Below are positions 3,972-32,613 of a DNA stretch of 32,613 bases, one piece after another (the stretch's first letter is position 1; every line of letters begins with the position of its first letter). The DNA lies in the NCBI GenBank assembly GCA_027460585.1, contig JAPZAP010000122.1, positions 1 to 32,613 on the forward strand. Direction: 5' to 3'. Position numbers and translations under genes: made by a program. Source of the stretch: Candidatus Methanoperedens sp. (GTDB lineage Archaea; Halobacteriota; Methanosarcinia; Methanosarcinales; Methanoperedenaceae). The notes under the pieces were generated by a model. It saw nothing but the letters and a program-made list of their open reading frames with translations. It had not been told where the DNA came from and did no database searches.

Positions 3972-4946
3972 TCAAGGTCTTCTCAGATGCTCGCAATTCC
4001 CCGCCACTATTTTCTCAAGATGCCCCTCACCAGTTTCAACAATCAGCGCCCCTTCATTATCCACGCCAATGGCTTCACCATATATCGTTCGCGCCTGTGC
4101 AGTAATTTTTACCCATTGTCCGATAGTTGCAGACATGTTTCTCCACTCTTCCAGTATCTGCGGGAATCCATCTTTTTGGAATTCAGTATAAAGCCACTCA
4201 AACTCTTCCAGAAGCTTTTGGACAAACTCAACCCGGCTAATTTTATGCCCCATTTCTTTTTCAAGAGATGTTGAATTGTCCCTGAACTCTTCCGGGAATG
4301 TTCCTGTATCCACATTTGCATCAATTCCAATTCCCACAACGAGATAATCTATGATATCCACTTCAGCTCCTATCTCCGTAAGAATGCCGCAAACTTTTTT
4401 CCCATTAATAAGTACATCATTTGGCCATTTTATTTTTGCAGGAATTCCAAAGCCCTGTATGGTCTTTGCAACAGAAACGCCTGCAAGAAGTGTTATCCTG
4501 GGGGCATATACGGGTTCTATCCTTGGCTTTAAAATTATAGATAGCCATATCCCCCCGACTGGTGAGATCCATTTGCGCCCAAGGCGGCCGCGTCCTGCTG
4601 TCTGTGATTCGGCAATAATGATAGTGCCTTCAACCACTGAGGCTGCTATTTCGCGGGCTATGATATTTGTACTTTCTGTCTCTTTAAAATACTTTATATC
4701 TTTCCCGATGACTTTTGTTTTAAGTCCTGCTTTTATTTCGCCAGGCGTCAGCGTATCTGGCGTTTCATTAAGCAAATAACCGATATTTGTTGATGAATCG
4801 ATCATATAACCCTCATCCTTTAAAACCTTGATATGTTTCCAGATAGCAGTTCTTGAAACCGAAAGCTCACTTGCAAGCTGTTCCCCGGAAACCGGTTTTC
4901 CTTTATTCTTAATAAGTTTCTCAAGGATTTTATCTTTAATGGTCAT
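3972..4946 (-). CDS. birA: Biotin-[carboxylase] ligase / biotin operon repressor BirA
   Basis: The 324-aa length and domain order are those of a two-function BirA. There is a winged-helix DNA-binding domain (about 1-60, with [19 protein letters not shown] as the recognition region). The catalytic domain carries ESTN (91-94), the biotin/ATP loop GRGRLGRKW (118-126) and [17 protein letters not shown] (173-189). A small SH3-like C-terminal domain follows from about residue 270. It activates biotin as biotinyl-AMP and attaches it to the Lys of PycB's EAMKM motif. Its ATG overlaps the pycA stop by four bases (ATGA), so translation is coupled to its target carboxylase. The N-terminal domain suggests autoregulation by biotin, but no operator could be identified. 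Confidence 0.93.
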
Positions 4947-6427
4947 TTAGCCCCCATAACTTTTGCATTCTGGATGTATGTTCCAACTGCCGCTGTTATT
5001 GCCGCAACCTTTTTATCATCAGCTCCAAGCGCTGATGCAAGTGTTGCGCCCTTTTCTTTTTCGGCCAGGATTATCTTCTCAACTTCCTTTATGATATCAT
5101 GGTCCTCAATAAAATGCGTGGTAAGCTCACCGCGCCTGAAATATTCGTTATTCATCACGGCTTTGTGGAAGGGAATGTTGGTAGTCACGCCCACAATTAT
5201 ATATTCGTATAATGCGCGTTTCATACGGGCTATGGCCTCATTCCTGTCCCTTCCCCAGACTGTAAGTTTTGATATAAGTGAATCATAGAATGGGGTTATG
5301 GTAAAGCCAGTATGCACTCCGCTGTCCACGCGAACGCCAGGGCCGCCTGATGAGCGATAATGTCGCAATTTTCCGGGCGCTGGTGTAAAGTTATTAAGCG
5401 GGTCTTCCGCATTCAGGCGGCATTCAATAGCCCATCCTCTTTGCTGGATATCCGATTGTTTGTAACTTAACTCTTCACCCGATGCGATTCTTAATTGCTC
5501 TTTCGCAAGGTCAACCCCGGTTACGATCTCTGTTATCGGGTGTTCGACCTGGAGTCTTGTGTTCATTTCCAGGAAAAAGTAATCACCTTTTGAATATAAG
5601 AACTCAATGGTTCCTGCATTGGTATAATTGATAGCAGCAGCCGCTTTGATCGCATCCGAACCCATTCGTTCCCTTAATTCAGGCGTCATTATGGGGGATG
5701 GGGATTCTTCGATCAGTTTCTGGTGCCTTCGCTGGATAGAGCACTCACGGTCACCCACGTGTATAATATTGCCATAATTATCCGCGAGTATCTGGAATTC
5801 AATATGGCGTGGCATTTCCAGGTATTTTTCGATAAAAACCGTTGCATCCCCGAACGATGATTTTGCAACCCTTTGCGTGGATTCAATGGTTTCATGAAGT
5901 TCTTCGGTTTTTCGGACAACTTTCATGCCAATACCTCCGCCGCCTGCTGATGCCTTCACAATAACAGGATATCCTATACTTTCCGCGACCTTGACGGCAT
6001 CATCAAAGTTATTGATGCCATTCTTGCTTCCAGGGATGACCGGGATACCTGCGGCTTTCATGGTCTTTTTTGCTGCGATCTTGCTTCCCACGCTTTCAAT
6101 GGCATGGCTTGAAGGACCTATGAAAATAATTCCTTCTTTTTCGCACCTGTCTGCAAATATCTCATTTTCCGATAGAAAACCATAACCCGGATGGATAGCC
6201 TCAGCGCCGGTTTTATGCGCCACTTCAATGATTTTATCTATATTCAGGTAACTCTGCGCCGCAGGCGCAGGACCAATAGGAAATGCTTCATCCGCGTACT
6301 TTGCAAAAAGGGCATTCTTATCTACTTCGGAATATACAGCCACGGTTTTTACATCAAGTTCCCTGCATGCGCGCATGACACGGATCGCTATTTCACTGCG
6401 GTTGGCGATTAGTATTTTTTTAAACAT
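4943..6427 (-). CDS. pycA: Pyruvate carboxylase subunit A (biotin carboxylase)
   Basis: This is a 494-aa protein, the usual length for the archaeal ATP-dependent subunit. It has the biotin-carboxylase N-domain ([14 protein letters not shown]), an ATP-grasp glycine loop [12 protein letters not shown] (about 158-169), [13 protein letters not shown] (200-212) and the catalytic strand [14 protein letters not shown] (287-300). It carboxylates the biotin carried on PycB using bicarbonate and ATP. PycB then passes the carboxylate to pyruvate to form oxaloacetate. The start is supported by AAGGAT eight bases before the ATG. It overlaps birA downstream and follows the HicB-like gene upstream. An acetyl-CoA carboxylase subunit is an alternative, but the pycB neighbour makes pyruvate carboxylase much more likely. 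Confidence 0.93.
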
Positions 6428-6487
6428 GTCTGATCCTTATGATTCATATGCATACTATGGGTTATTAGAGGGCATTGGTTCTAATTA

Positions 6488-6724
6488 TTAAGCGTATATT
6501 AATCTGCCTCTAGGTTTTGGAATATTTCTTCCAAGTTCTTTAGCGGTCTCTCTCCATTCCTTTATGATGACAAGAGTGTTTGTTATGGCTTCTTCGTATG
6601 TTTTGCCATCTGCCATGCAACCTGGAAGCTCTGGGACTTCTACTATATAGGAGTCATCATCATCGCTCCAATAAACGACCATTTCACCTTTAAGAATTTT
6701 GTCAAGAACTTTTTCAATGCTCAT
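6488..6724 (-). CDS. Stand-alone HicB-like (UPF0150) antitoxin-family protein
   Basis: This is a 78-aa protein. The middle reads YIVEVPELPGCMADGKTYEE, the hallmark of the HicB/UPF0150 partial RNase-H-like fold (a strand, the PELPG turn, then a helix starting at TYEEA). There is no HicA partner on either side: only 37 bases separate it from pycB and 60 from pycA. It therefore sits as a guest between two subunits of one enzyme and is probably co-transcribed with them. It may be an orphan antitoxin, a remnant of a lost hicBA module, or a small regulator of the carboxylase operon. The sequence does not decide. Confidence 0.8.
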   Translation of the reverse strand: MSIEKVLDKILKGEMVVYWSDDDDSYIVEVPELPGCMADGKTYEEAITNTLVIIKEWRETAKELGRNIPKPRGRLIYA

Positions 6725-6761
6725 AATTAATTATCGTCTCTAATTTTAAACATATATTTCC

Positions 6762-8477
6762 TTATCCAACGACCATCAGCACATCCCCAGCGCTTACAGT
6801 ACCCCCTTCTTTCACAAATATATCTTTCACTGCGCCCCCGTGAGGCGCATGTATATTATTTTCCATTTTCATGGCTTCAAGGACGATCACAGCATCACCT
6901 TTTGAAACCTGGTCTCCCTTCTTGACCTTGATTTTAAGCACCATCCCCTGCATGCTTGCAGTGATGGCTCCGTCCATGACTTTCGGTCGTTCCGTTTCCG
7001 CAGAACGAACAGAAAGAGCGCCGCCAGCTGAAATGATCTTTACATTGAATAAGTCGCCATCAACTTCAACCTTGAACTCAGTTGGCAAGGGCTCCACCGA
7101 TCTTCCGTTATTTGGTTTTGGAGCTTCAAGCGTCTCTTCTTTGGCTTCCCCGCGCAGGAATTTCGGGGCTATGGCAGGATATAAGGCATAAGTGAGAATA
7201 TCTTCGGGTTTCTTAACGATCCCCAGAGCCAGTGCTTCTTTCGTGACTTTATCAAGTTCAGGAGGCAATAGATCAGCGGGGCGGCATGTTATTGGTTTCT
7301 CTTTCCCAAGGACTTTTTCTACGATCTCTTTACTGACAGGGGCCGGCGTGCGTCCATAGAGACCTTTAACATAATCCTTCACTTCTTTCGGGATAACTTT
7401 GTAACGTTCACCCATTAATACGTTAAGCACTGCCTGTGTTCCAACTATCTGGCTCGTTGGTGTGACAAGAGGCGGATAGCCCAGCTCTTCGCGCACCCTT
7501 GGCATCTCGGCAAGGACTGCCTCGTATTTATCCAATGCGTTCTGCTCCTTTAGCTGTGAGACAAGATTTGAGAGCATGCCGCCGGGTATCTGGTATTTTA
7601 AGACGTTTGTATCTATTCTTTCGGATATCGGGTCAAGGATGCTCCTGTATTTTTCTTTCATATCCTCGAAATATTTCTTAATCTCTGTGAGAAGTATCAG
7701 GTCAAGACCGGTATCGTAAGGCGTACCGCGAAGCGCTGCAACCATTGTTTCCGTGGGCGGCTGTGAAGTGCCCCAGGCAAATGGCGAAAAAGCCGTATCG
7801 AGTACATCAATTCCTGCCTGGCATGCATAAAGATAGCTCATTGGAGCCATTCCGCTCGTGCAGTGGCTGTGCAGGTCGACCGGTATGCTTATTTCTTCTT
7901 TTAAAGCCCGGACAAGGTCATAGGCGTTCTGTGGAGAAATAAGTCCGGCCATATCTTTTATGCAAAGAGAATCACATCCCATCTCTTCAAGTTCTTTTGC
8001 CATCTTGACATATAATGGGATTGGATGAACGGGGCTGATAGTATAACAAACAGTTCCCTGCACATGAGCGCCGACACGCTTTGCGGTCTTGATGGAAACT
8101 TCCATGTTCCTTATATCGTTCACGGCATCAAATATCCTGAAAATATCAATACCGCTTTCAGCCGCATGTTCCACGAATTTGACTACAATATCATCCGAAT
8201 AGTGCCTGTATCCCACAAGATTCTGGCCGCGAAGAAGCATCTGAAGTGGTGTTTTCGTGATGGCCTTCTTAAGCGCGCGAAGCCTGTCCCAGGGGTCTTC
8301 ATTCAGATACCGGATAGATGAGTCAAATGTCGCCCCACCCCACACTTCAAGTGAAAAAAAGCCAACATCGTCCATCTTTTCGGCAATGGGGAGCATATCC
8401 CTTGTCCGCATGCGTGTAGCTATAAGTGATTGATGGGCGTCTCGTAGGGTTGTGTCAGTTAGTTTTACTAGTGCCAT
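6762..8477 (-). CDS. pycB: Pyruvate carboxylase subunit B (carboxyltransferase + biotin carrier)
   Basis: This is a 571-aa protein. The N-terminal carboxyltransferase TIM barrel opens with KLTDTTLRDAHQSL (5-18, with metal-site Asp) and contains the metal-ligand motif DLHSHCTSG and the CIKDMAG Lys region. A conserved linker carries PTSQIVGTQAVLNVL. The C-terminal biotinyl domain carries EAMKM at 534-538, so Lys537 is the predicted biotin site, 34 residues from the end as is usual. It transfers carboxylate from biotin to pyruvate. The oxaloacetate decarboxylase alpha subunit has the same layout, but pycA and birA downstream argue for the carboxylase. No Shine-Dalgarno is seen before the ATG. 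An A/T-rich AAATTAAATAAC about 30-40 bases upstream is a candidate TATA element for the operon. Confidence 0.93.
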   Translation of the reverse strand: MALVKLTDTTLRDAHQSLIATRMRTRDMLPIAEKMDDVGFFSLEVWGGATFDSSIRYLNEDPWDRLRALKKAITKTPLQMLLRGQNLVGYRHYSDDIVVKFVEHAAESGIDIFRIFDAVNDIRNMEVSIKTAKRVGAHVQGTVCYTISPVHPIPLYVKMAKELEEMGCDSLCIKDMAGLISPQNAYDLVRALKEEISIPVDLHSHCTSGMAPMSYLYACQAGIDVLDTAFSPFAWGTSQPPTETMVAALRGTPYDTGLDLILLTEIKKYFEDMKEKYRSILDPISERIDTNVLKYQIPGGMLSNLVSQLKEQNALDKYEAVLAEMPRVREELGYPPLVTPTSQIVGTQAVLNVLMGERYKVIPKEVKDYVKGLYGRTPAPVSKEIVEKVLGKEKPITCRPADLLPPELDKVTKEALALGIVKKPEDILTYALYPAIAPKFLRGEAKEETLEAPKPNNGRSVEPLPTEFKVEVDGDLFNVKIISAGGALSVRSAETERPKVMDGAITASMQGMVLKIKVKKGDQVSKGDAVIVLEAMKMENNIHAPHGGAVKDIFVKEGGTVSAGDVLMVVG

Positions 8478-23606: not shown

Positions 23607-24836
23607 ATGGTTAAATGGCTGTGTACGGTCTGCAATATCTATGTTTACGATGAGGAAACAGGTGACCCTCAAACAAGTATAGACAAGGGCACAAAAGTCC
23701 AGGACTTTCCGGATTCATGGAGATGTCCCGTTTGCGGCGCCACTAAAGAAAAGCTTGTTCCTGTCACGCAAGAGGAATACTGGCAAAAAGCCAGGGCTTA
23801 TACGGACTTTACCGGGAAAAAAGAGGAAATCACGAGCATTTTAGTTGGTGTTGACAACCCGCAAACTGTGCCTGAATTCAGACAGGAATATGGGAAACCT
23901 CTGGGATTGCGTGGCATTGGCCAGGGTCTCACCTATCTTGCTAATTTTTCCGCCCTCTCAAAATACAGGTTGAAAAACAGGCTTATCTCAAAGCATGCTG
24001 ACCCGGTTATAGAGACCACGTTTTTGGGGAAAAAGATAAGTATGCCAGTACTCGGAGCACCCATGAGCGGTCTTAGCTTCGTGAGCAATATAACGGAAGA
24101 GGATTTTGCATATAATATCCTGGAAGGATGTAAAGTTGCAGGAACTATTGGTTATACAGGTAACACATCCAGAGACTATGAGATGAAACATCCTGCGATA
24201 ATGGCACTTAAAAAAGTCAATGGTCACGGGGTTAACATTTTCAAGCCGCAGTCACAGGAAGTCCTGATAGATCTGATAAAGCAATCAGAAGAAGAAAAAG
24301 CAGTGGCTGTAGGTGTTGATATAGACGGCGCCGGCTCGGTGAACTTTGCGCTTGCGGGAAAACCTGTTTTCAGGAAAACCATCGACGAATTGCGAGAGCT
24401 TAAAAATGCAACAAGTCTTCCATTCATCGTCAAAGGAGTTATGTGCGTGGAGGATGCACTGGCGGCGGCTGAAGCCGGGGCCGATGTCATAGGCGTTTCC
24501 AACCACGGCGGGAGGGTCCTTGATTCGGGATTGGGGGTTGCAGATGTTCTACCTGGAATCGCAAGTGTGTTAAGAGATACGGATAACGGCAAAAGGATAA
24601 TAATTACGGCAGACGGGGGAGTGAGAACAGGATTTGATGTCGTCAAAATGCTGGCTCTGGGAGCAGATTTTGTTCTAGTGGGAAGGCCGCTTGCAAGAGA
24701 GGCGGTTTCAAGCGGGGTTGAAGGTGTCAGGAGGATACTTGATTATTTAAGAACAGATATAAGAATTGCCATGATTATGACTTCCTGCAATACACTGGAA
24801 GACATAAATGAAGGAATTCTTGGAAAGGAGAGTTAG
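23607..24836 (+). CDS. Rubredoxin-FMN-dependent alpha-hydroxy-acid oxidoreductase fusion
   Basis: This is a 409-aa protein. Residues 1-52 are a rubredoxin domain with Cys6, Cys9, Cys40 and Cys43 in CTVC and CPVC knuckles. From about 60 onward it is the (S)-2-hydroxy-acid oxidase/lactate dehydrogenase barrel: FLGKKISMPVLGAPMSGLSF, then VGVDIDGAG, PFIVKGVMCVEDA (catalytic Lys), GVSNHGGRVLD (His300, the proton-abstracting residue) and ITADGGVRTGFDVVKMLALGADFVLVGRP for the FMN phosphate. Joined in one chain, substrate electrons could pass from FMN to the rubredoxin iron instead of to oxygen. The substrate is unknown. It follows the DUF2769 gene by ten bases. Confidence 0.9.
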   Translation: MVKWLCTVCNIYVYDEETGDPQTSIDKGTKVQDFPDSWRCPVCGATKEKLVPVTQEEYWQKARAYTDFTGKKEEITSILVGVDNPQTVPEFRQEYGKPLGLRGIGQGLTYLANFSALSKYRLKNRLISKHADPVIETTFLGKKISMPVLGAPMSGLSFVSNITEEDFAYNILEGCKVAGTIGYTGNTSRDYEMKHPAIMALKKVNGHGVNIFKPQSQEVLIDLIKQSEEEKAVAVGVDIDGAGSVNFALAGKPVFRKTIDELRELKNATSLPFIVKGVMCVEDALAAAEAGADVIGVSNHGGRVLDSGLGVADVLPGIASVLRDTDNGKRIIITADGGVRTGFDVVKMLALGADFVLVGRPLAREAVSSGVEGVRRILDYLRTDIRIAMIMTSCNTLEDINEGILGKES

Positions 24837-24922: not shown

Positions 24923-25447
24923 TTAAATAATACTTTTCAATGATTCACGGTAATACAAGGCTAAAATTATGTGACCTGAGAGAAGCAATATGGACAATAT
25001 TGTAAGGGAATCATGGATACTGAAATTCAATTCAACGAAACTGCGGCTGAACATCGATTTCATCCATACAACAAAACCCGTTATGGAAAGGCCTGCAATA
25101 ATAAGCAAGGTCATCAGGAAATTCGCTTTGCGCCCGGCATTAAACTTTCCCTTTGAAACGATCTTATTTTTTTTCAGTAATCCGATAAACCAGTTCAAAT
25201 CATCATATGTCCATTCCGTAAGTTCTTTAATATCTTTTCGTGCGGATCTTCCAAGAAGACATATAATAAGTGGGAATAAAATCAGTGGCAGGGATGCATA
25301 GACGTGAACCATTTTTATAAAAGGGTCTCCAAGAAGAGATTTTGGTGTGAGGAATAAATACATACCGGTTATCAGAAGCCATATGAAAACCAGTGCATGA
25401 GACCAGTGTAATATTTTTGTGGAAATATCGAACCTCAATATTCTCAA
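24923..25447 (-). CDS. Cytochrome b561-type membrane subunit (di-heme)
   Basis: This is a 174-aa protein with four predicted membrane helices. The helices carry histidines where the Ni-hydrogenase/cytochrome b561 family binds two b hemes: KILHWSHALVFIWLLITG in helix 1, MVHVYASLPLI in helix 2, and IHDSLTILSILLLSGHIIL in the last. It probably moves electrons between membrane quinones (methanophenazine in this lineage) and the molybdopterin protein encoded upstream. Its ATG overlaps the stop of that gene by four bases. The loop between helices 2 and 3 is long and basic. FdnI- and YedZ-type proteins are distant alternatives. Confidence 0.82.
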   Translation of the reverse strand: MRILRFDISTKILHWSHALVFIWLLITGMYLFLTPKSLLGDPFIKMVHVYASLPLILFPLIICLLGRSARKDIKELTEWTYDDLNWFIGLLKKNKIVSKGKFNAGRKANFLMTLLIIAGLSITGFVVWMKSMFSRSFVELNFSIHDSLTILSILLLSGHIILALYYRESLKSII

Positions 25448-26145
25448 GGATAAGACACTCCATCGGTTTGATATCCAAGATTTTCCCAGTAACCTGTTTC
25501 CTGCTCCTTAGTAAGCGTGATCCGGTTTACCCATTTTACATTTTTATACCCGAACATCCTTGGCATCAAAAGGCGCAATGGCAAGCCCTGTTCTTCAGGC
25601 AGCGGCGCGTCATTCATCATATAAGCAAGCATGACATCAGGTTCAAGACTTTCTTTTATGGACAGGCTGTCGCTGTATAATCCGCTTGCAGAATGGAAAG
25701 ACGCAAATCCTGCTTCTGGCAAAATTCCGGCTTTATTAAATAAAACTTTTAAACGCACTCCTTTCCATTTCACATTTTGCACGGACCACCCCTCGACGCA
25801 GTGAAAATCAGAAACCTGTTCCTCGCTTTCAAGCTTTAGAAGTTCATCATAACTGATAGCGAGGGGTTTGTTTACAAGCCCGTCAATTGTGAGTTTCCAT
25901 GTTGCCGGGTCAAACGCAGGGTTTTGTTCGATACTTCGTATCCTGAATTTATTAATTGCCGTTATCCCGATTTGTTTTAGAAATTCAAGGCCTGCAATTA
26001 TTGCCCCGAAAATAATTCCCAGTAGTATCAAAAACCTTCTGCGGTTCAAAATCGTTTTTGATTCTTTTTCTTGATTCACAGGTACTCCCGTTAAATCTTG
26101 GTCGATGATAGGTAAATACTTATCTGATTTCCGTGACCGTTTCAA
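25444..26145 (-). CDS. Membrane-anchored molybdopterin oxidoreductase (sulfite oxidase/MsrP family)
   Basis: This is a 233-aa protein. After a charged N-terminus comes NRRRFLILLGIIFGAIIAGL (34-53), a twin-arginine-type signal that may stay as a membrane anchor. The rest is a sulfite-oxidase-fold Moco domain: DFHCVEGWSVQNVKWKGV with Cys116 as molybdenum ligand, DVMLAYMMNDAPLPEEQGLPLRLLMPRMFGYKNVKWVNRI, and YWENLGYQ at the end. The substrate is unknown; MsrP-like sulfoxide reduction is one option. It forms a pair with the cytochrome b gene. The only usable start before the Tat motif is a TTG at 26145, which lies inside repeat copy B, so the true 5' end may have been replaced. Confidence 0.84.
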   Translation of the reverse strand: MKRSRKSDKYLPIIDQDLTGVPVNQEKESKTILNRRRFLILLGIIFGAIIAGLEFLKQIGITAINKFRIRSIEQNPAFDPATWKLTIDGLVNKPLAISYDELLKLESEEQVSDFHCVEGWSVQNVKWKGVRLKVLFNKAGILPEAGFASFHSASGLYSDSLSIKESLEPDVMLAYMMNDAPLPEEQGLPLRLLMPRMFGYKNVKWVNRITLTKEQETGYWENLGYQTDGVSYP

Positions 26146-26506: not shown

Positions 26507-27226
26507 TTATCGTGGCGCTTTGCACTGCTCCAGGCTGCGAAAAACCATTGCCACACCAATGATGTTCCCCTTATCGTCTTTGATTGAATTAGTACTGATA
26601 TCGATCGGTATGCTCTTACTGTCCCGGGCCTGAAGCAGGTTTTCCTTTATGTTTCCTGATTTTTCAGTGACTATATTGAGGACTTCCTTCAATGGTTTCC
26701 CTTGCGCCATATCCGGTTCCCATCCTGTCATGGATTGTGCGACAGTATTCATGAATAGCACACAGCCATTTGAGTCAGTTGCGATAACACCATCGCTGAT
26801 GCTGTTGAGCGTTACGGAAAACCATTCATTCTTCTCCTTTAATTTCTTTTCCATATCCTGTTTGAACAGGGCGATCTCAATTGCGACCTGCAATTCTCTT
26901 TCTTTGAATGGTTTGATGATATATCCGAACGGTTCTGTTATTTTTGCCCGGAGCAGGGTTTTATCATCAGAATAAGCAGTGAGATATACAACAGGAGTGT
27001 TAAAATTCTCATGTATCTGCTTTGCAGCTTCAATTCCATCCATTTCACCCTGAAGCACAATATCCATAAGCACAAGGTCAGGTAAAAACTCCTCCGTTTT
27101 CCTGATAGCCTCATTTCCGCTTGATGCGGTTGAAATGACTGAATACCCCATCTTCTTCAACTTTATTTTTATGGATTCTGCCACAATAGCTTCATCTTCT
27201 ACCACAAGTATCTTCGTTTGTTGCAT
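26507..27226 (-). CDS. Response regulator with REC and PAS domains
   Basis: This is a 239-aa protein. The receiver domain occupies 1-125: acidic pocket VVEDEA (Asp11), phospho-acceptor Asp55 in LVLMDIVLQG, the YLTAYSDD switch Thr, and Lys in YIIKPFKERE. A short coiled linker (EKKLKEKNEWF) leads to one PAS domain (about 133-235) that ends without any DNA-binding or kinase module. It overlaps the upstream histidine kinase gene by one base (TAATG) and is its obvious partner. Output is therefore likely through protein contact. The end GVAMVFRSLEQCKAPR is a normal PAS end, so no truncation is needed to explain the length. Confidence 0.9.
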   Translation of the reverse strand: MQQTKILVVEDEAIVAESIKIKLKKMGYSVISTASSGNEAIRKTEEFLPDLVLMDIVLQGEMDGIEAAKQIHENFNTPVVYLTAYSDDKTLLRAKITEPFGYIIKPFKERELQVAIEIALFKQDMEKKLKEKNEWFSVTLNSISDGVIATDSNGCVLFMNTVAQSMTGWEPDMAQGKPLKEVLNIVTEKSGNIKENLLQARDSKSIPIDISTNSIKDDKGNIIGVAMVFRSLEQCKAPR

Positions 27227-29691
27227 TACTTTATTCCCCTGAACCTTATCCTGAACTCAGTTCCGTTGTCGTTGTTCATTGTTATCTCACCATGCAACTG
27301 GTTTTCCACCAGTATGTTTACAATATGAAGTCCGAGGGACTCGGTTTTCCTGAAATCAATGCCTTCCGGGATGCCAATCCCGTTATCCCGCACTGAAAGT
27401 TCGATCATATCTTCATCATATGTACTCAGGGATATTTCAATTTCACCATTTTTATCCAAAGGAAATGCATGTTTCAGGGAATTTGAAATCAATTCATTTA
27501 TTATCAATCCGCATGGGATTGCTTTATCAATTCCCATCGAAATATTTTCTGCATTTATCTTCAGCCTGACTTTTCTTTCTGTGATCCCGTAGGACAAGAA
27601 AAGGCCGCTTACCAGTTCTTCAATATATTCCTTAAAATCGATTCTTGATAAGCTTTCGGATCTATAAAGTTTCTCATGGATAAGCGCCATGGAATCTATC
27701 CTGTTCTGGCTTTCTTTTATTATCCCTTTGACATTTTCATCATTAGAAAATTCTTCCTGGAGCATCAATAAGCCGGAAATGACCTGCATATTGTTCTTTA
27801 CCCTGTGATGTACCTCCCGCAGCAGTATTTCTTTTTCCTCAAGAGATTCTTTGAGTCTTGCCGTCCGGTCTTGAACACGTAGTTCTAATTCATCGTGCGC
27901 TTTTAGCAGGGCTTCTTCGGCCCTCTTGCGCCCGGTGATATCCCGGAAGACAAGCACAACGCCCATAGTGGTACCATCCCTGTCTTTTATAGGTGCCCCG
28001 CTATCGTCGATCGGAACTTCGGTTCCGTCCTTCCTGACCAGGAGCGTGTGGTTGGCCAGACCGACAACCAATCCTTCCTGAATCACCCTGCTGACAGGGT
28101 CTTCAACTTCAGCGCGGGTGTACTCGTTGATTATGTTGAAAACCTCAGTCACAGGTTTTGCCGAAGCTTCAGCGAGTGTCCAACCTGTCAAAGCTTCCGC
28201 TTCGGTGTTCATGTAAGTTATCCTGCCTTCGGTTTCTGTGGCAATGACAGCATCGCCGATGCTGGCCAGGGTTGTGGCCCAGCGCTGCTCGCTTTCCCTC
28301 AGCGCCTCTTCAGCCTTCTTGTTCTCAGTGATGTCACGCACAACTGATACTGACCCGATGATATTGCCACTGGAATCTCTAACCGGGGAGGCGCTGACCT
28401 GTCGATACCGCAACTCCCCGGTATCGGGAGTTCGGATTATCTCCTCCAGGTTCCTTACTACTTCTCCGTTGAGAGCGCGCAATGGAGGCGCCTCCTCTGT
28501 AGGACGCGGGCTGCCATCAGGGCGATACACTTCCAGGCTTTCGGCGAGCTTTTCCACATCAATCCCATCAACGGAGCTAAAACCGAACTCCTGGAGAGCG
28601 GACGGATTTGCCAAAGTGAATCTTTTACGTGTGTCAGCAAACCAGATCTCGTCGTTAATGCTGTTGACAAGTGATGATAATCTGTCTTTCTCCTCTTGAA
28701 CTGCGTTAAACAGCCTCTGATTTTCCTCCTCGGCCTGCTTGCGCTCTGTGATGTCGCGGAAAACCAGCACCACGCCCATGGTTTTGCCGCCCCCATCCCT
28801 TATCGGTGCACCGCTGTCATCGATCGGGACTTCTGTTCCATCCTTCCTCACCAGGATGGTGTGGTTGGCAAGACCGATAACCATCCCTTCTTTGAGCACC
28901 CTGCAGACAGGGTTATCAGCTTCAAGGCGAGTGTACCCGTTGATGATGTTGAATACTTCAGTAATCGGTTTTGTCAAAGCCTCTGCAAGCGCCCAGCCGG
29001 TCAATGATTCCGCTTCGGCGTTCAAGAAAGTTATGCGGCCTTCTACATCTGTGGCAATGACCGCATCACCGATGCTTGCCAGTGTTGTAGCCCAGCGCTG
29101 CTCGCTTTTCGCAAGCTGTGCTGTTCGCTCCTCAACCCTTATTTCCAATTCATCGCGCGCCCTGCGAAGCTCATCCTGTATCAGCTTCTGCCCGGTCAGA
29201 TCCGTGGCGACCAGATAGGTTAACCTGGAATTATCCACTTCCAGGGTATTAAAGGAAATCTGAACCGGTACGAATCTTCCATCCCCGGCAAGCAAGGTAA
29301 TTTCCCCATTGCTGCTTCTATCTCTTCCTTCCCGCAGGAGTTCCAAAAAAAACGTCTCATCTGATGGCGCGATATAATGTGCAATTCCTGAACCCATTAA
29401 TTTTTCAAGCGGGGTTTTCAGCATGCCGGCAAAAGAGCAGTTGCAGTAAAGGATGGAATCATCGCCGGTCAGCATCGCAGCCCCTTCACTCATTTCCTCG
29501 ATAATGATCCGGTATGGCTGCTCTGCCCCTTTCAGTGTGAAGACCTGATCGCCTTTTTCCCCGGATACCACGAGCGCATCCACCTCTCCGCTGCGGATGG
29601 CGCGCAGGGTTTCCTCTGCCTCTGCAAGTTGTGCTCGAAGCCTATCAACTTCAAGCTTCAGTTCTTCTTGTGGTTTATTTTTTTCTTTCAT
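27226..29691 (-). CDS. Multi-PAS sensor histidine kinase (HisKA_2/HWE type)
   Basis: This is an 821-aa cytoplasmic protein. A short coiled coil (5-35) leads into four PAS domains at about 55-170, 197-320, 335-460 and 468-590. Then come a HisKA_2 dimerisation domain with REVHHRVKNNMQ (His628/His629) and a HATPase with INELISNSLKHAF (N box) and RDNGIGIPEG (G1 box). PAS2 and PAS4 are near duplicates, both starting SEQRWATTLASIGDAVIAT and ending VLVFRDITxRKxAEE. No membrane helix is seen, so it senses an internal signal, possibly redox or a KaiB/KaiC state. Its ATG overlaps the kaiB stop by four bases and its stop overlaps the response regulator start. Confidence 0.93.
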   Translation of the reverse strand: MKEKNKPQEELKLEVDRLRAQLAEAEETLRAIRSGEVDALVVSGEKGDQVFTLKGAEQPYRIIIEEMSEGAAMLTGDDSILYCNCSFAGMLKTPLEKLMGSGIAHYIAPSDETFFLELLREGRDRSSNGEITLLAGDGRFVPVQISFNTLEVDNSRLTYLVATDLTGQKLIQDELRRARDELEIRVEERTAQLAKSEQRWATTLASIGDAVIATDVEGRITFLNAEAESLTGWALAEALTKPITEVFNIINGYTRLEADNPVCRVLKEGMVIGLANHTILVRKDGTEVPIDDSGAPIRDGGGKTMGVVLVFRDITERKQAEEENQRLFNAVQEEKDRLSSLVNSINDEIWFADTRKRFTLANPSALQEFGFSSVDGIDVEKLAESLEVYRPDGSPRPTEEAPPLRALNGEVVRNLEEIIRTPDTGELRYRQVSASPVRDSSGNIIGSVSVVRDITENKKAEEALRESEQRWATTLASIGDAVIATETEGRITYMNTEAEALTGWTLAEASAKPVTEVFNIINEYTRAEVEDPVSRVIQEGLVVGLANHTLLVRKDGTEVPIDDSGAPIKDRDGTTMGVVLVFRDITGRKRAEEALLKAHDELELRVQDRTARLKESLEEKEILLREVHHRVKNNMQVISGLLMLQEEFSNDENVKGIIKESQNRIDSMALIHEKLYRSESLSRIDFKEYIEELVSGLFLSYGITERKVRLKINAENISMGIDKAIPCGLIINELISNSLKHAFPLDKNGEIEISLSTYDEDMIELSVRDNGIGIPEGIDFRKTESLGLHIVNILVENQLHGEITMNNDNGTEFRIRFRGIK
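27937..28293 (-). repeat. PAS-encoding duplicated segment, copy 2 (PAS4)
   Basis: About 357 bases match 28748-29108 closely, including long identical runs such as GCCCAGCGCTGCTCGCTT. They encode the fourth PAS domain of the kinase. This is a segmental duplication inside the gene. Confidence 0.75.
28748..29108 (-). repeat. PAS-encoding duplicated segment, copy 1 (PAS2)
   Basis: This is the partner of 27937-28293 and encodes the second PAS domain. The protein copies keep DGTEVPIDDSGAPI and FNIIN unchanged, while the linkers between PAS domains differ. Confidence 0.75.
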
Positions 29692-30029
29692 GACTTAGAG
29701 CGCAAATCCAGTCCTACCAGGATACGTTCTTTATCAGACATATCGCCGATAAGTCTTCGTAAAGGAAGAGGAAGTTTCTTTATGAGCGTGGGCGCGGCAA
29801 TTATCTGTTCATCCTTGGCGAGTACGGGCTGCTGGTAAATATCGATTACCTCAAGTTCATACCTGCCTTTCAGGTTTTCCTCGCATATTTTCCTGATATT
29901 ATGGATGGCCTGTGTAGATTTTGGCGTTATGCCTGTAATGTATAAGCGCAGGACATATTTTTCATTCCCGTCCTTCTGGAGTGACTGTTCAAATTCTTCG
30001 GTGACATCTTTTATTTCGTTTTCGTTCAT
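29688..30029 (-). CDS. kaiB: KaiB-family protein (second copy)
   Basis: This is a 113-aa protein. After a 20-residue acidic lead, the thioredoxin-like KaiB fold begins at KYVLRLYITGITPKSTQAIHNIRKICEENLKGRYELEVIDIYQQP. It then has APTLIKKLPLPLRRLIGDMSDKERILVGLDLR. These are the fixed KaiB motifs, including the TGxTPxS loop and the P-P switch region. It should bind the KaiC ring and possibly compete with the kinase below. It overlaps the histidine kinase start by four bases. Compared with the other copy it carries an N-terminal extension. Confidence 0.92.
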   Translation of the reverse strand: MNENEIKDVTEEFEQSLQKDGNEKYVLRLYITGITPKSTQAIHNIRKICEENLKGRYELEVIDIYQQPVLAKDEQIIAAPTLIKKLPLPLRRLIGDMSDKERILVGLDLRSKS

Positions 30030-30072
30030 AGCTTAACCCCTTTTCCTAAAAGCATATTCTTCTTCCTCTCAT

Positions 30073-30375
30073 TTATTCTTTGAGGGGTCGAAGGTCAAGC
30101 CCGACAAGCACACGCTCGGTATTTGAGAGGTCGCCGATGACTCTCTTTAAAGGCTGGGGAAGTTTCCGGACAAGTGTCGGGATGGCAAATATCTGGTCTC
30201 CTTTGGCAAGCTGCGGATTTTTCAGCAGGTCGATCACTTCGATCCTGTATTTTCCCTCAAGATGTTCTTCACAGAGCCTCTTAAGATTGGCGAATGCTGT
30301 CATGGATTTTGGCGTCTGCCCCGCAACATAAAGCCTCAACTCCCACATGTCCGAACATTCTTCCACAGCTTTCAT
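30073..30375 (-). CDS. kaiB: KaiB-family protein (first copy)
   Basis: This is a 100-aa protein, the standard KaiB length. [47 protein letters not shown] and [36 protein letters not shown] show the full fold. It shares about half of its residues with the second copy, so the two are old duplicates and not a recent event. Its ATG overlaps the kaiC stop by four bases (ATGA). Translation is thus coupled to KaiC, its presumed binding partner. 43 bases separate it from the second kaiB. Confidence 0.93.
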
Positions 30376-32090
30376 TTCCTGGTCCTCATATCATCGCCTC
30401 TGCGAAGACGCATCATTTCTGTCCGGTCTCCCGCCAGCACCTTTTCCTGCATCTCTTCTTGCTGGGTGAGCTTGGCCACTTCTTCTTCAGCGGATTCGAA
30501 CTCGGAACGCATAGCTGTGATCTGCGCTTCAAGAGCGGCCCTCTTGCGCTCAAGTTCACGCTTCTTGCGCTCGATCTCCTCTTTGCGCATAAGGTCAGAA
30601 GCTTTCTCCTGCGCCTCTTGTGCAGACCGTGCAGCGCCTGTCAGCACGCCTCCCGGACCAAGATACACATCAATCAGGTCTATCCCTTTATCGGTCAGCA
30701 GGAATTCGCGTATCTGGTTCGAATGCGCCATGCCGCGCGACTTTAATATGTAAAGGCCGCGATTGCGTTCGCCCCCGATTTCAATATCGCGAAGCAGGAG
30801 CCACGTATCCATCAGCGATGAGATGCCGAATTCGGTCATTTCAAGAGAACCTCCATGCGACAGGTTAGTAAATAGTGCTGTGATCTGGTTCGCTTTTAAG
30901 AAATCAATAAGACGCGCCAGCATTGATTTGACCTCGGTATCACTGCCTATGGCTATCAAATTTGTAACCGGATCAATGATAACGACTTCTGGTTTAAATT
31001 CAGTTACCATTTTGTACATCTTCACAAGATGCATTTCCAGGCCGTAGATCGAGGGGCGCACTGCGTAAATATCCAGGAGCCCCTGCTCTATCCACGGCTC
31101 AAGGTCAATGCCTATTGAGCGCATATTCCTTGTGATCTGGCTGGGGGCTTCCTCAAATGCAAAATAGAGGCATCTCTCCCCGCGTGAGCAGGCCGCATTG
31201 GCAAAATTTGCTGCTATACTTGATTTTCCTGTGCCTGCTGTGCCTGAGATAAGGACGCTGCTGCCGCGATAGTATCCTTCTCCACCCATCATAGTATCAA
31301 GACGGGGAATGCCTGTTGATATCCGTTCAGTGGATACGCCGTGCTGCAATCCGATCGATGTAATAGGCAGCACTGAAATTCCTTTTTCGTCTATCAGGAA
31401 CGGATACTCGTTTGTGCCGTGCGATGAGCCCCGGTATTTGACGATGCGTAAACGCCGTGTTGAGATCTGACCCTCGACCCTGTTGTCAAGAAGGATGACG
31501 CAATCAGAGACATATTCCTCAAGCCCGTGCCGCGTCAGCATCTTTTCGCCCCTTTCTCCTGTAATGATCGCGGTAACGCCTTTTTCTTTCAGCCAGCGGA
31601 ATAACCTTCGAAGTTCGGCGCGAAGTACGCCTTCATTGGCTAATCCGCCAAATAGCGATTCTATAGTATCCAGCACTACACGGTTTGCCCCGATAGAATC
31701 AATGGCGTAGTTTAGGCGGATGAAAAGTCCTTCGAGGTCATATTCACCTGTTTCTTCGATCTCACTTCGCTCGATCCGGACCTGGTCAATATACATCTTT
31801 TTGCTTGCAATAAGCTCGTTCAGGTCGAATCCCAGAGATGCGACATTCTGGGCGAGTTCATCTGAGGATTCTTCAAATGACATAAAGACGCCGGGTTCAT
31901 TAAACTGGGCTGCGCCCCGGACAAGGAATTCCATTGCCATCAAAGTTTTGCCGCATCCTGCGCTGCCGCATATAAGTGTCGGGCGGCCTTTGGGTAGTCC
32001 TCCATCCGTGATTTCATCAAGTCCCCGGATACCTGTCGTGCATTTTGGAAGTTCTTCAGGGGATTTTAGATTCTTTTTTCTTATTGTCAT
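30372..32090 (-). CDS. kaiC: KaiC-family double-domain ATPase with C-terminal coiled coil
   Basis: This is a 572-aa protein. Two RecA-like halves carry P-loops GSAGCGKT (42-49) and GTAGTGKS (283-290), and paired catalytic Glu at 73/74 and 313/314. In the second half [10 protein letters not shown] (420-429) aligns with the cyanobacterial autophosphorylation site. Ser424 and Ser425 stand where KaiC has Ser431 and Thr432, and Met replaces the nearby Thr434. From about 487 to 550 the tail is a charged coiled coil ([16 protein letters not shown]), unlike the short A-loop tail of clock KaiC. AAGGT lies about ten bases before the ATG. It heads an operon with two kaiB genes, a kinase and a regulator. 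KaiA is not seen. Confidence 0.94.
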
Positions 32091-32378: not shown

Positions 32379-32445
32379 GCTATCATAAATCCGCGTTAAT
32401 CAGGGTTTATCTGCGGTTTTTTATCTTCAAATATTTTATGATAGC
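32379..32445. repeat. 67-bp imperfect palindrome (GCTATCATAAAT … ATTTTATGATAGC)
   Basis: The outer arms GCTATCATAAAT and ATTTTATGATAGC are reverse complements apart from one base. Immediately inside the left arm is CCGCGTTAATCAGGGTTTATCTGCGG, with CCGC/GCGG ends. It has the look of a small non-coding dispersed repeat or MITE. No second copy is present in this window. Confidence 0.55.
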
Positions 32446-32505
32446 CCTGACACCAGACTTTTTGACAGCCTCAATTATAGTTGAATACCAAACAATTGAA
32501 ACTAT

Positions 32506-32573
32506 CTTTGCGTCCTTTGCGCCCTTTGCGGTGAAAAAAATCATGCACCGCAAAGAACGCAAAGAGCGCAAAG
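32506..32573. repeat. 68-bp hairpin of nine-base CTTTGCGYC units
   Basis: The left arm (28 nt, CTTTGCGTCCTTTGCGCCCTTTGCGGTG without its last eight bases as the repeating core) is answered by a right arm, CACCGCAAAGAACGCAAAGAG plus seven bases. The loop is a 12-base AAAAAAATCATG. Each arm is three near-copies of a nine-base unit, and there are about three mismatches. The structure parallels the ACAGGAT hairpin in the 256-bp repeats. Confidence 0.75.
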
Positions 32574-32613
32574 TTTTAGCATATAAGTAAAATAAATTAT
32601 GTTCTTGACTATA

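Follow-up and report, generated by a model that had tools for sequence, protein, structure and literature searches.

A kaiB-linked kinase segment and a second type of KaiB in an archaeal KaiA-less KaiBC operon

The KaiBC system of Rhodobacter (Cereibacter) sphaeroides (PDB 8dba, 8fwi and 8fwj) combines KaiB with a KaiC protein, KaiC-RS, that carries a Ser-Ser phosphosite and a C-terminal extension, and it lacks KaiA. KaiC-RS is reported to autophosphorylate constitutively, its dephosphorylation being steered by ATP/ADP and by the binding of KaiB to the ADP-bound CI ring, and with KaiB it is described as an ATP/ADP-driven hourglass; the extension forms the coiled coil of a dodecamer (PMC10076222). 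Operons that join kaiC and kaiB to a PAS/kinase gene are reported from Rhodopseudomonas palustris and R. sphaeroides (PMC4794148), PAS kinases precede the kaiBC clusters of Rhodospirillum rubrum (PMC10931921), and a group with kaiC-kaiB near histidine kinase or GGDEF/EAL genes appears in the Ramlibacter paper, which also describes the RtaNt domain, found in kaiC-kinase pairs that lack kaiB and called KaiB/SasA-like (PMC3164672). KaiB is reported from four archaeal genera only, and the same study concludes that other Bacteria and Archaea must use outputs unlike that of Synechococcus (PMC5520375). Here we describe a five-gene operon (kaiC, kaiB1, kaiB2 and genes for a sensor kinase and a response regulator) on contig JAPZAP010000122.1 of Candidatus Methanoperedens sp., whose 32,613 nucleotides are the window analyzed. 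Like the purple-bacterial and Ramlibacter-paper groups, it sets kaiC and kaiB beside a PAS kinase gene, a place taken in some of those groups by a GGDEF/EAL gene. The operon is an archaeal representative of this already known KaiBC arrangement, and its interest lies in the shared front end of the kinase and in the second type of KaiB.

The five open reading frames (ORFs) lie on the minus strand at positions 26507-32090 in the order given above. Their coordinates agree with a preliminary description made from the sequence alone: kaiC and kaiB1 overlap by 4 bases, kaiB1 and kaiB2 are separated by a gap of 43, kaiB2 and the kinase gene overlap by 4, and the kinase and regulator genes overlap by 1. 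The archaeal setting also holds, as the nearest relatives of this KaiC belong to a Methanosarcinales archaeon (85%) and to Ca. Methanoperedens (80%), with that of a METP1 archaeon also among the nearest, and the same gene order is present in Methanosarcina sp. DH2 (locus L019 of genome G010, with contig coordinates identical to those in G366).

KaiC residues 15-565 align with structure 8dba, phosphosites and tail included, and the protein is 55% identical over 548 residues to KaiC of Cereibacter sphaeroides KD131. Both ATPase halves are intact (CI with a P-loop at residue 42 and EE at 73-74, CII with a P-loop at 283 and EE at 313-314). The adjacent serines S424 and S425 of CII align with S413 and S414 of KaiC-RS, which are EE in 8fwi, and a C-terminal extension is recognized from sequence alignment only, up to residue 565. 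The extension and the double-serine phosphosite place the KaiC and KaiB of the operon with the R. sphaeroides-type KaiA-less KaiBC proteins, and the biochemistry of KaiC and KaiB1 would, by analogy, follow that of these homologues. KaiA (PF07688), on which a KaiABC oscillator depends, was not found in the 84%-complete genome of the operon, in a congener whose genome is 99% complete or in three further archaeal genomes that bear such a locus, in searches that detected both positive controls, a Nostoc genome and Synechococcus elongatus. With KaiC and KaiB confirmed by Pfam, the description of the unit as a KaiA-less KaiBC system stands. A self-sustained circadian oscillator would be compatible with the KaiC phosphosites and the presence of KaiB, but it is barely credible given the negative KaiA searches in all five genomes and the hourglass described for the KaiC-RS type. 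As separate observations, the same genome encodes a further KaiC-family protein, a 483-residue open frame with two ATPase stretches (G000:C87:8574-9923), along with several single-stretch ones, and the intergenic stretch upstream of kaiC, at 32400-32613 of the window, contains a short imperfect repeat (CGCAAAGGGCGCAAAGGACGCAAAGA).

The front end of the kinase had been taken as PAS sensors alone, a view that overlooked its first ~70 residues, which are the Kai-linked part of the protein. A search with kinase residues 1-62 matched the gene that follows kaiB in many loci, although the catalytic halves of these proteins vary from locus to locus. In a 29-row alignment of this segment, I32, D38, L53, Y60, R61 and M67 are invariant, and the consensus reads EAEETLRAIRxGxVDALVV...FTL..AD.PYR, or in summary AIRxGEVDALVV...FTL...PYR. 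Profile A1, made from 28 of the 56 loci described below and the window sequence, matches the operon's kinase with an E value of 6e-35, that kinase being among its 29 rows. AlphaFold2 predicts a helix at residues 8-34, a putative β-hairpin at 39-52 and a PAS domain that is modeled confidently from about residue 70. Profile searches of Pfam, NCBIfam and the PDB placed the segment in no known family and gave scattered weak matches, many of them to coiled coils, and all 50 matches listed in a fold search with the model of segment and first PAS domain (PAS1) are PAS/LOV-type proteins. The available parts of PMC4794148, PMC10931921 and PMC3164672 leave the shared segment undescribed, and the literature searched, with partial coverage that does not establish absence from print, contained no description of it or of a division of labor between KaiB1 and KaiB2.

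Because A1 was built from loci picked by similarity, the sole fair tests of linkage between segment and kaiB are three phylum samples, 1,007 evenly drawn genomes in all, that were subjected to whole-genome profile searches. At most 15 to 19 first-look candidates per genome were scored, which makes the tallies of the segment minimum values; matches in the Bacteroidota-phylum and Pseudomonadota samples were accepted up to a limit of 1e-6, and seven weak matches (E above 1e-8) were excluded from the Halobacteriota tallies. Strong matches occur in at least 18 of 392 Halobacteriota genomes (24 matches), 19 of 296 from the Bacteroidota phylum (19 matches) and 9 of 319 Pseudomonadota (9 matches). KaiB was searched for across the full Halobacteriota and Bacteroidota-phylum samples, where 23 and 27 genomes are positive, and in the 9 segment-positive genomes alone for Pseudomonadota. 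It is present in every one of the 46 genomes that together hold the 52 strong matches, and in none of the six Halobacteriota genomes with weak matches alone. Fisher tests of co-occurrence, a statistic that ignores relatedness, give 7e-27 for Halobacteriota and 5e-24 for the Bacteroidota phylum. By position, 48 of the 52 matches lie no more than 278 bases downstream of a kaiB on the same strand, and three others are found in a kaiB locus at distances of up to 2.5 kb (51 in total), leaving one orphan (in G379). A second orphan segment gene, from outside the samples (L119), lies near a contig end in a kai-positive relative. Many kinases are without the segment, as three archaeal genomes with 38, 30 and 57 HATPase_c places hold 1, 1 and 2 segment matches, the operon's own genome being the one with 38 against 1. 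Thus, the segment is near-exclusively linked to kaiB.

The same association is carried by plasmids. The segment occurs in 13 records of a plasmid collection, from five genera, and the five records examined, one per genus, all have the order kaiC, one or two kaiB genes, segment gene. One of them is C. sphaeroides KD131, in which the segment-bearing kinase gene starts 5 bases after kaiB; its KaiB has the same accession as in PMC10076222 and its KaiC matches 8dba along its length. The described hourglass shares with the archaeal operon, as found in this analysis, a kinase gene downstream of kaiB whose product begins with this segment. It differs in having one KaiB, an HWE kinase and no receiver gene annotated after the kinase, and in being bacterial.

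A scan with one genome per species yielded 56 KaiC loci, chosen by similarity to the KaiC of the window, and in 43 of them kaiC is followed by one to three kaiB genes and then the segment gene. In L051 the segment gene lies upstream of a truncated kaiC, and 12 loci are without one, 3 of which end within 150 bases of the kai genes. The 43 loci span Nitrospirota, Planctomycetota, Cyanobacteriota, Bacteroidota, Verrucomicrobiota, Myxococcota, WOR-3, Chloroflexota and archaea. This recurrence indicates that the arrangement is not due to chance, and the first four genes form a widespread cassette. An archaeal specialty was considered and dropped, because archaeal and bacterial KaiCs interleave and the order occurs in many bacterial phyla. 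The KaiC tree (85 rows of at least 440 residues, quick mode, midpoint root) has 4 changes, at least 2 of them forced by starred branches; short duplicate loci (L057-L098 and L126-L149) and L102, which equals L019, were left out of the trees. Some loci depart from the simple pattern. Two Methanosarcina loci (L019, 7962-14237, and L053, 7425-12138) have three tandem kaiBs between kaiC and the segment gene, and second segment proteins adjoin the same Kai locus in L107 (2282-5641, minus strand) and at G133:C1:6480-6683, both divergent, and in L108 (3977-5638, minus strand), in tandem, such that one Kai unit may drive two outputs.

What follows the segment is variable. The 80 segment proteins comprise those of the fetched loci and the window, and among the 40 submitted to Pfam, PAS domains were found in 40, HATPase_c in 33, HisKA in 19, HisKA_2 in 6, HWE in 5, HisKA_3 in 2, GGDEF and EAL in 3 each and sigma-54 activation domains in 2. 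These kinase classes overlap, and the operon's kinase has a match to HisKA_2 along with a weak one to HWE. (Crude regular expressions, when used to recognize output domains, overlooked most kinases, and Pfam was used in their place.) Examples include GGDEF-EAL proteins in L007, L010 and L013, sigma-54 proteins in L032 and L036, and the HWE kinase of C. sphaeroides. Even in relatives from Methanoperedens, identity within the segment is 79-83% and the catalytic end varies, with HisKA-HATPase-REC (REC, receiver) in L001, L099 and L119 and HisKA_2, 82% identical, in L002.

This variability bears on two other explanations. One is that the segment is a general helical linker of PAS proteins, near kaiB through common operon descent and without contact to Kai proteins. 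The long helix predicted for its first half and the weak resemblance to unrelated coiled coils fit such a linker, but the residues D38, L53, Y60, R61 and M67, invariant beyond the helix, as well as I32, do not. Moreover, the segment is conserved in relatives of which three have another catalytic end, and it keeps its place before unrelated output domains, which makes a mere linker quite improbable. The other is that the kinase is an input device, whose PAS domains detect a cue such as redox or oxygen and whose segment lets it set the state of KaiC. An input role is suggested for the kinases of R. rubrum and R. sphaeroides (PMC10931921), and the best structural matches of segment and PAS1 include oxygen- and light-sensing PAS/LOV domains, although these are unspecific. 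However, the segment also precedes GGDEF-EAL proteins and sigma-54 activators, which are output enzymes, and effector ends of several kinds would be superfluous in a device that served for input alone. We regard this alternative as unlikely.

The fifth gene does not share the distribution of the other four. Its homolog in L002 overlaps the kinase gene and is 84% identical over the full length, but this is one of three close relatives; in L001 and L099 the kinase itself includes a receiver, as a fusion, and no separate receiver gene was found beside it in either locus when the window's regulator was used as a phmmer query. The fifth gene is lineage-specific. Accordingly, the preliminary claim of a complete five-gene operon and the proposed check of gene order in relatives hold for kaiC, kaiB, kaiB and an output gene, even across domains, and only in part for the regulator. 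Within the window, the physical link to a two-component output is real, as Pfam identifies a PAS-HisKA_2-HATPase_c kinase and a REC-PAS regulator in the same operon. Response_reg and PAS are the regulator's only Pfam domains, confirming that it is without a DNA-binding domain. It is thus unlike RpaA, which pairs a receiver with such a domain, and it probably acts through contact with other proteins. REC-PAS regulators without an output domain are reported mostly from methanogens (PMC5847659); these have the same architecture, and what differs here is the linkage to a KaiBC operon.

The two KaiB proteins of the operon represent two kinds. When 151 KaiB domains are placed in a midpoint-rooted tree, based on an alignment of few columns, all 52 first-of-two KaiBs fall in one 83-row fork (support 88/94) with canonical cyanobacterial KaiB, and none of the 51 second-of-two KaiBs that precede a segment gene does so. 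A D-x-Y-Q-x-P motif is present in 43 of 51 second-type rows and in 0 of 52 of the first type. SasA N-domains, from three Nostocales, score 42-44 bits with a KaiB2 profile and 27-28 with a KaiB1 profile. At the limits used, the NCBIfam SasA model matches KaiB2 (29 bits, far under the cut-off) and not KaiB1, as does the SasA crystal chain 6x61 (E 0.001 for KaiB2). A model of KaiB2 from its own 29-row alignment is thioredoxin-like, with fold-switched KaiB, Legionella KaiB and SasA as the best structural matches. Judged at the level of sequence, KaiB1 and KaiB2 are distinct paralogues, of which the kinase-side KaiB2 is the more SasA-like. The five KaiB-positive archaeal genomes that have no segment (L120-L124) also have no kaiB-kaiB pair after kaiC. 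The archaeal locus L113 (genome G224) encodes a 640-residue fusion protein made up of a KaiB domain, the segment, PAS domains and a HisKA kinase. A further KaiB-domain protein, of ~254 residues and neither canonical KaiB nor SasA, is encoded separately in two Nostocales (L165 in G006 and L168 in G009).

We consider the chances about evenly balanced that the operon is a KaiA-less KaiBC timer that spreads horizontally and brings along its own read-out, via KaiB2 and the kinase segment. In this scheme, KaiC would be an autophosphorylating double ATPase ring, paired by its tails into dodecamers, whose phosphorylation would track the cellular ATP/ADP ratio as an hourglass and not as a self-sustained clock. 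KaiB1 would bind ADP-state KaiC and reset it, the two proteins together keeping the state. KaiB2 would dock on KaiC and pass this state to the kinase via the first ~70 residues of the latter, a helix and a hairpin leading into PAS1, and the kinase would in turn phosphorylate the REC-PAS regulator. The leading candidate for a sensor of the Kai complex is the N-terminal segment. Because the effector ends are of output type, we infer that the signal runs from Kai to kinase, and we infer the bridging role of KaiB2 from the L113 fusion, its likeness to SasA and weak covariation.

Several observations weigh against this reading. The hairpin is modeled at low confidence (predicted local distance difference test [pLDDT] 53-58). 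No segment is found in 5 of the 23 KaiB-positive Halobacteriota genomes and 8 of the 27 from the Bacteroidota phylum. The rows in which a segment accompanies a single KaiB fall in the KaiB1 fork in 16 of 22 cases, C. sphaeroides included. KaiB2 is therefore not generally required, and KaiC or KaiB1 may be what the segment touches. (A rule that the segment occurs only with KaiB2 fits the archaeal sample and fails in bacteria with single KaiB1-like KaiBs.) The L113 fusion lies apart from the kaiC locus of its genome (L112) and has no kaiC beside it; its branch in the tree is long, and the Y-Q motif is missing from it. Segment distances correlate with KaiB2 beyond KaiC and KaiB1 with a partial r of 0.17 (p 0.02), against 0.03 (p 0.36) for KaiB1, in 49 loci that exclude the rearranged L117, a signal that is weak and phylogenetically confounded. 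As for the likeness to SasA, the profile comparison involves only three proteins, all from Nostocales; canonical KaiB scores 119 bits with the KaiB2 profile and 118 with the KaiB1 profile, the 254-residue Nostocales KaiBs score 88-90 and 79-82, respectively, and the advantage of the KaiB2 profile with SasA may partly be due to its breadth. The fold that AlphaFold picks for a KaiB depends on the alignment, and the five KaiB2 models differ (mean pLDDT 64-80) and stand without a KaiB1 control. Lastly, a separate receiver gene directly follows 4 or 5 of the 80 segment genes (window, L002, L043 and L106, with a weak, partial match in L118), and the one in L106 encodes a REC-PadR protein that has a DNA-binding domain.

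Some of these points would be explained if the segment docked directly on KaiC or on KaiC-KaiB1, with KaiB2 as a competitor or tuner of KaiB1 and not a bridge. Such docking would suit C. sphaeroides, Nannocystis and WOR-3, where the segment occurs with one KaiB1-like KaiB, and segment distances do correlate best with KaiC (r 0.75 versus 0.60 for KaiB2 and 0.44 for KaiB1). However, among the 56 loci the segment is present in 30 of 31 with at least two kaiBs versus 13 of 20 with one, a KaiB is fused to the segment in L113, and the residual covariation of the segment is with KaiB2 only. We find direct docking rather doubtful. The timer reading also competes with an energy or stress hub, an option that the preliminary description named as well, which would report the ATP/ADP ratio but would not measure time. 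An anaerobic archaeon presumably has no obvious daily cue, and KaiC-RS itself tracks that ratio (PMC10076222). Yet the fold switch of R. sphaeroides KaiB is reported to take hours (PMC11551320), which implies a delay even without oscillation. A hub without timing is possible but, in our view, on the improbable side.

Returning to a timer read out through KaiB2 and the segment, the operon resembles the cyanobacterial SasA-RpaA pathway in joining a proposed reader of KaiB fold to a kinase and a regulator. It is unlike that pathway in that the reader is a separate protein and the regulator is without a DNA-binding domain, and Pfam finds no KaiB domain in the operon's kinase, such that the N-terminal KaiB fusion typical of SasA is missing. 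The contrast drawn earlier between a PAS kinase and the KaiB-like SasA is right as to the PAS domains but is softened by the SasA-like KaiB2 that adjoins the kinase and by the existence of a KaiB-segment-kinase fusion. We tentatively propose, as a view that falls somewhat short of an even chance, that the segment is a general Kai adaptor linking bacterial and archaeal KaiBC to interchangeable outputs, that KaiB2 is a free-standing SasA-like reader, and that in SasA the cyanobacteria have a fused form of a system that was split in its older state. The kaiB-tied segment before varied outputs and the distinct KaiB1 and KaiB2 paralogues both look new. Positions of the operon's features are collected in Table 1.

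Table 1. Coordinates in the window of the operon genes and of the protein regions discussed.
Feature	Position	Strand	Basis
KaiC, 572 residues	30372..32090	-	Pfam KaiC, two ATPase stretches
KaiC C-terminal extension, from ~residue 490	30372..30623	-	alignment to 8dba up to residue 565
KaiB1, 100 residues, canonical-type KaiB (DLLKNPQLA)	30073..30375	-	Pfam KaiB, KaiB tree
KaiB2, 113 residues, second KaiB type, DIYQQP motif	29688..30029	-	Pfam KaiB, tree, profiles, model
Sensor kinase, 821 residues: N-terminal segment, PAS domains, HisKA_2, HATPase_c	27226..29691	-	Pfam
Kai-linked N-terminal segment of kinase, ~residues 5-75	29467..29679	-	profile searches, AlphaFold2 model
First PAS domain of kinase, residues 63-185, conserved along with segment	29137..29505	-	alignment, model
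HisKA_2 dimerization/phosphoacceptor domain, EVHHRVKNN, His 628/629	27589..27816	-	Pfam, residue check
HATPase_c domain, N-box 732, G1 769, G2 785	27241..27510	-	Pfam, residue check
Response regulator, 239 residues: receiver (D55, T83, K105) and one PAS	26507..27226	-	Pfam, residue check

Elsewhere in the window, a molybdopterin oxidoreductase gene (Oxidored_molyb) overlaps a cytochrome b561-type gene downstream of the operon (24923-26145), likely encoding a membrane redox pair. A Rubredoxin domain is fused to an FMN-dehydrogenase/glutamate-synthase-like domain at 23607-24836, and genes for a biotin ligase, a biotin carboxylase and a PYC/OADA-type carboxylase subunit stand in a row at 3972-8477.

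Non-cyanobacterial KaiBC systems are without the SasA-RpaA pathway, and the segment is a concrete candidate for the missing link between timer and output. It also provides a sequence tag by which Kai-controlled kinases, cyclic di-GMP enzymes and sigma-54 activators may be annotated.

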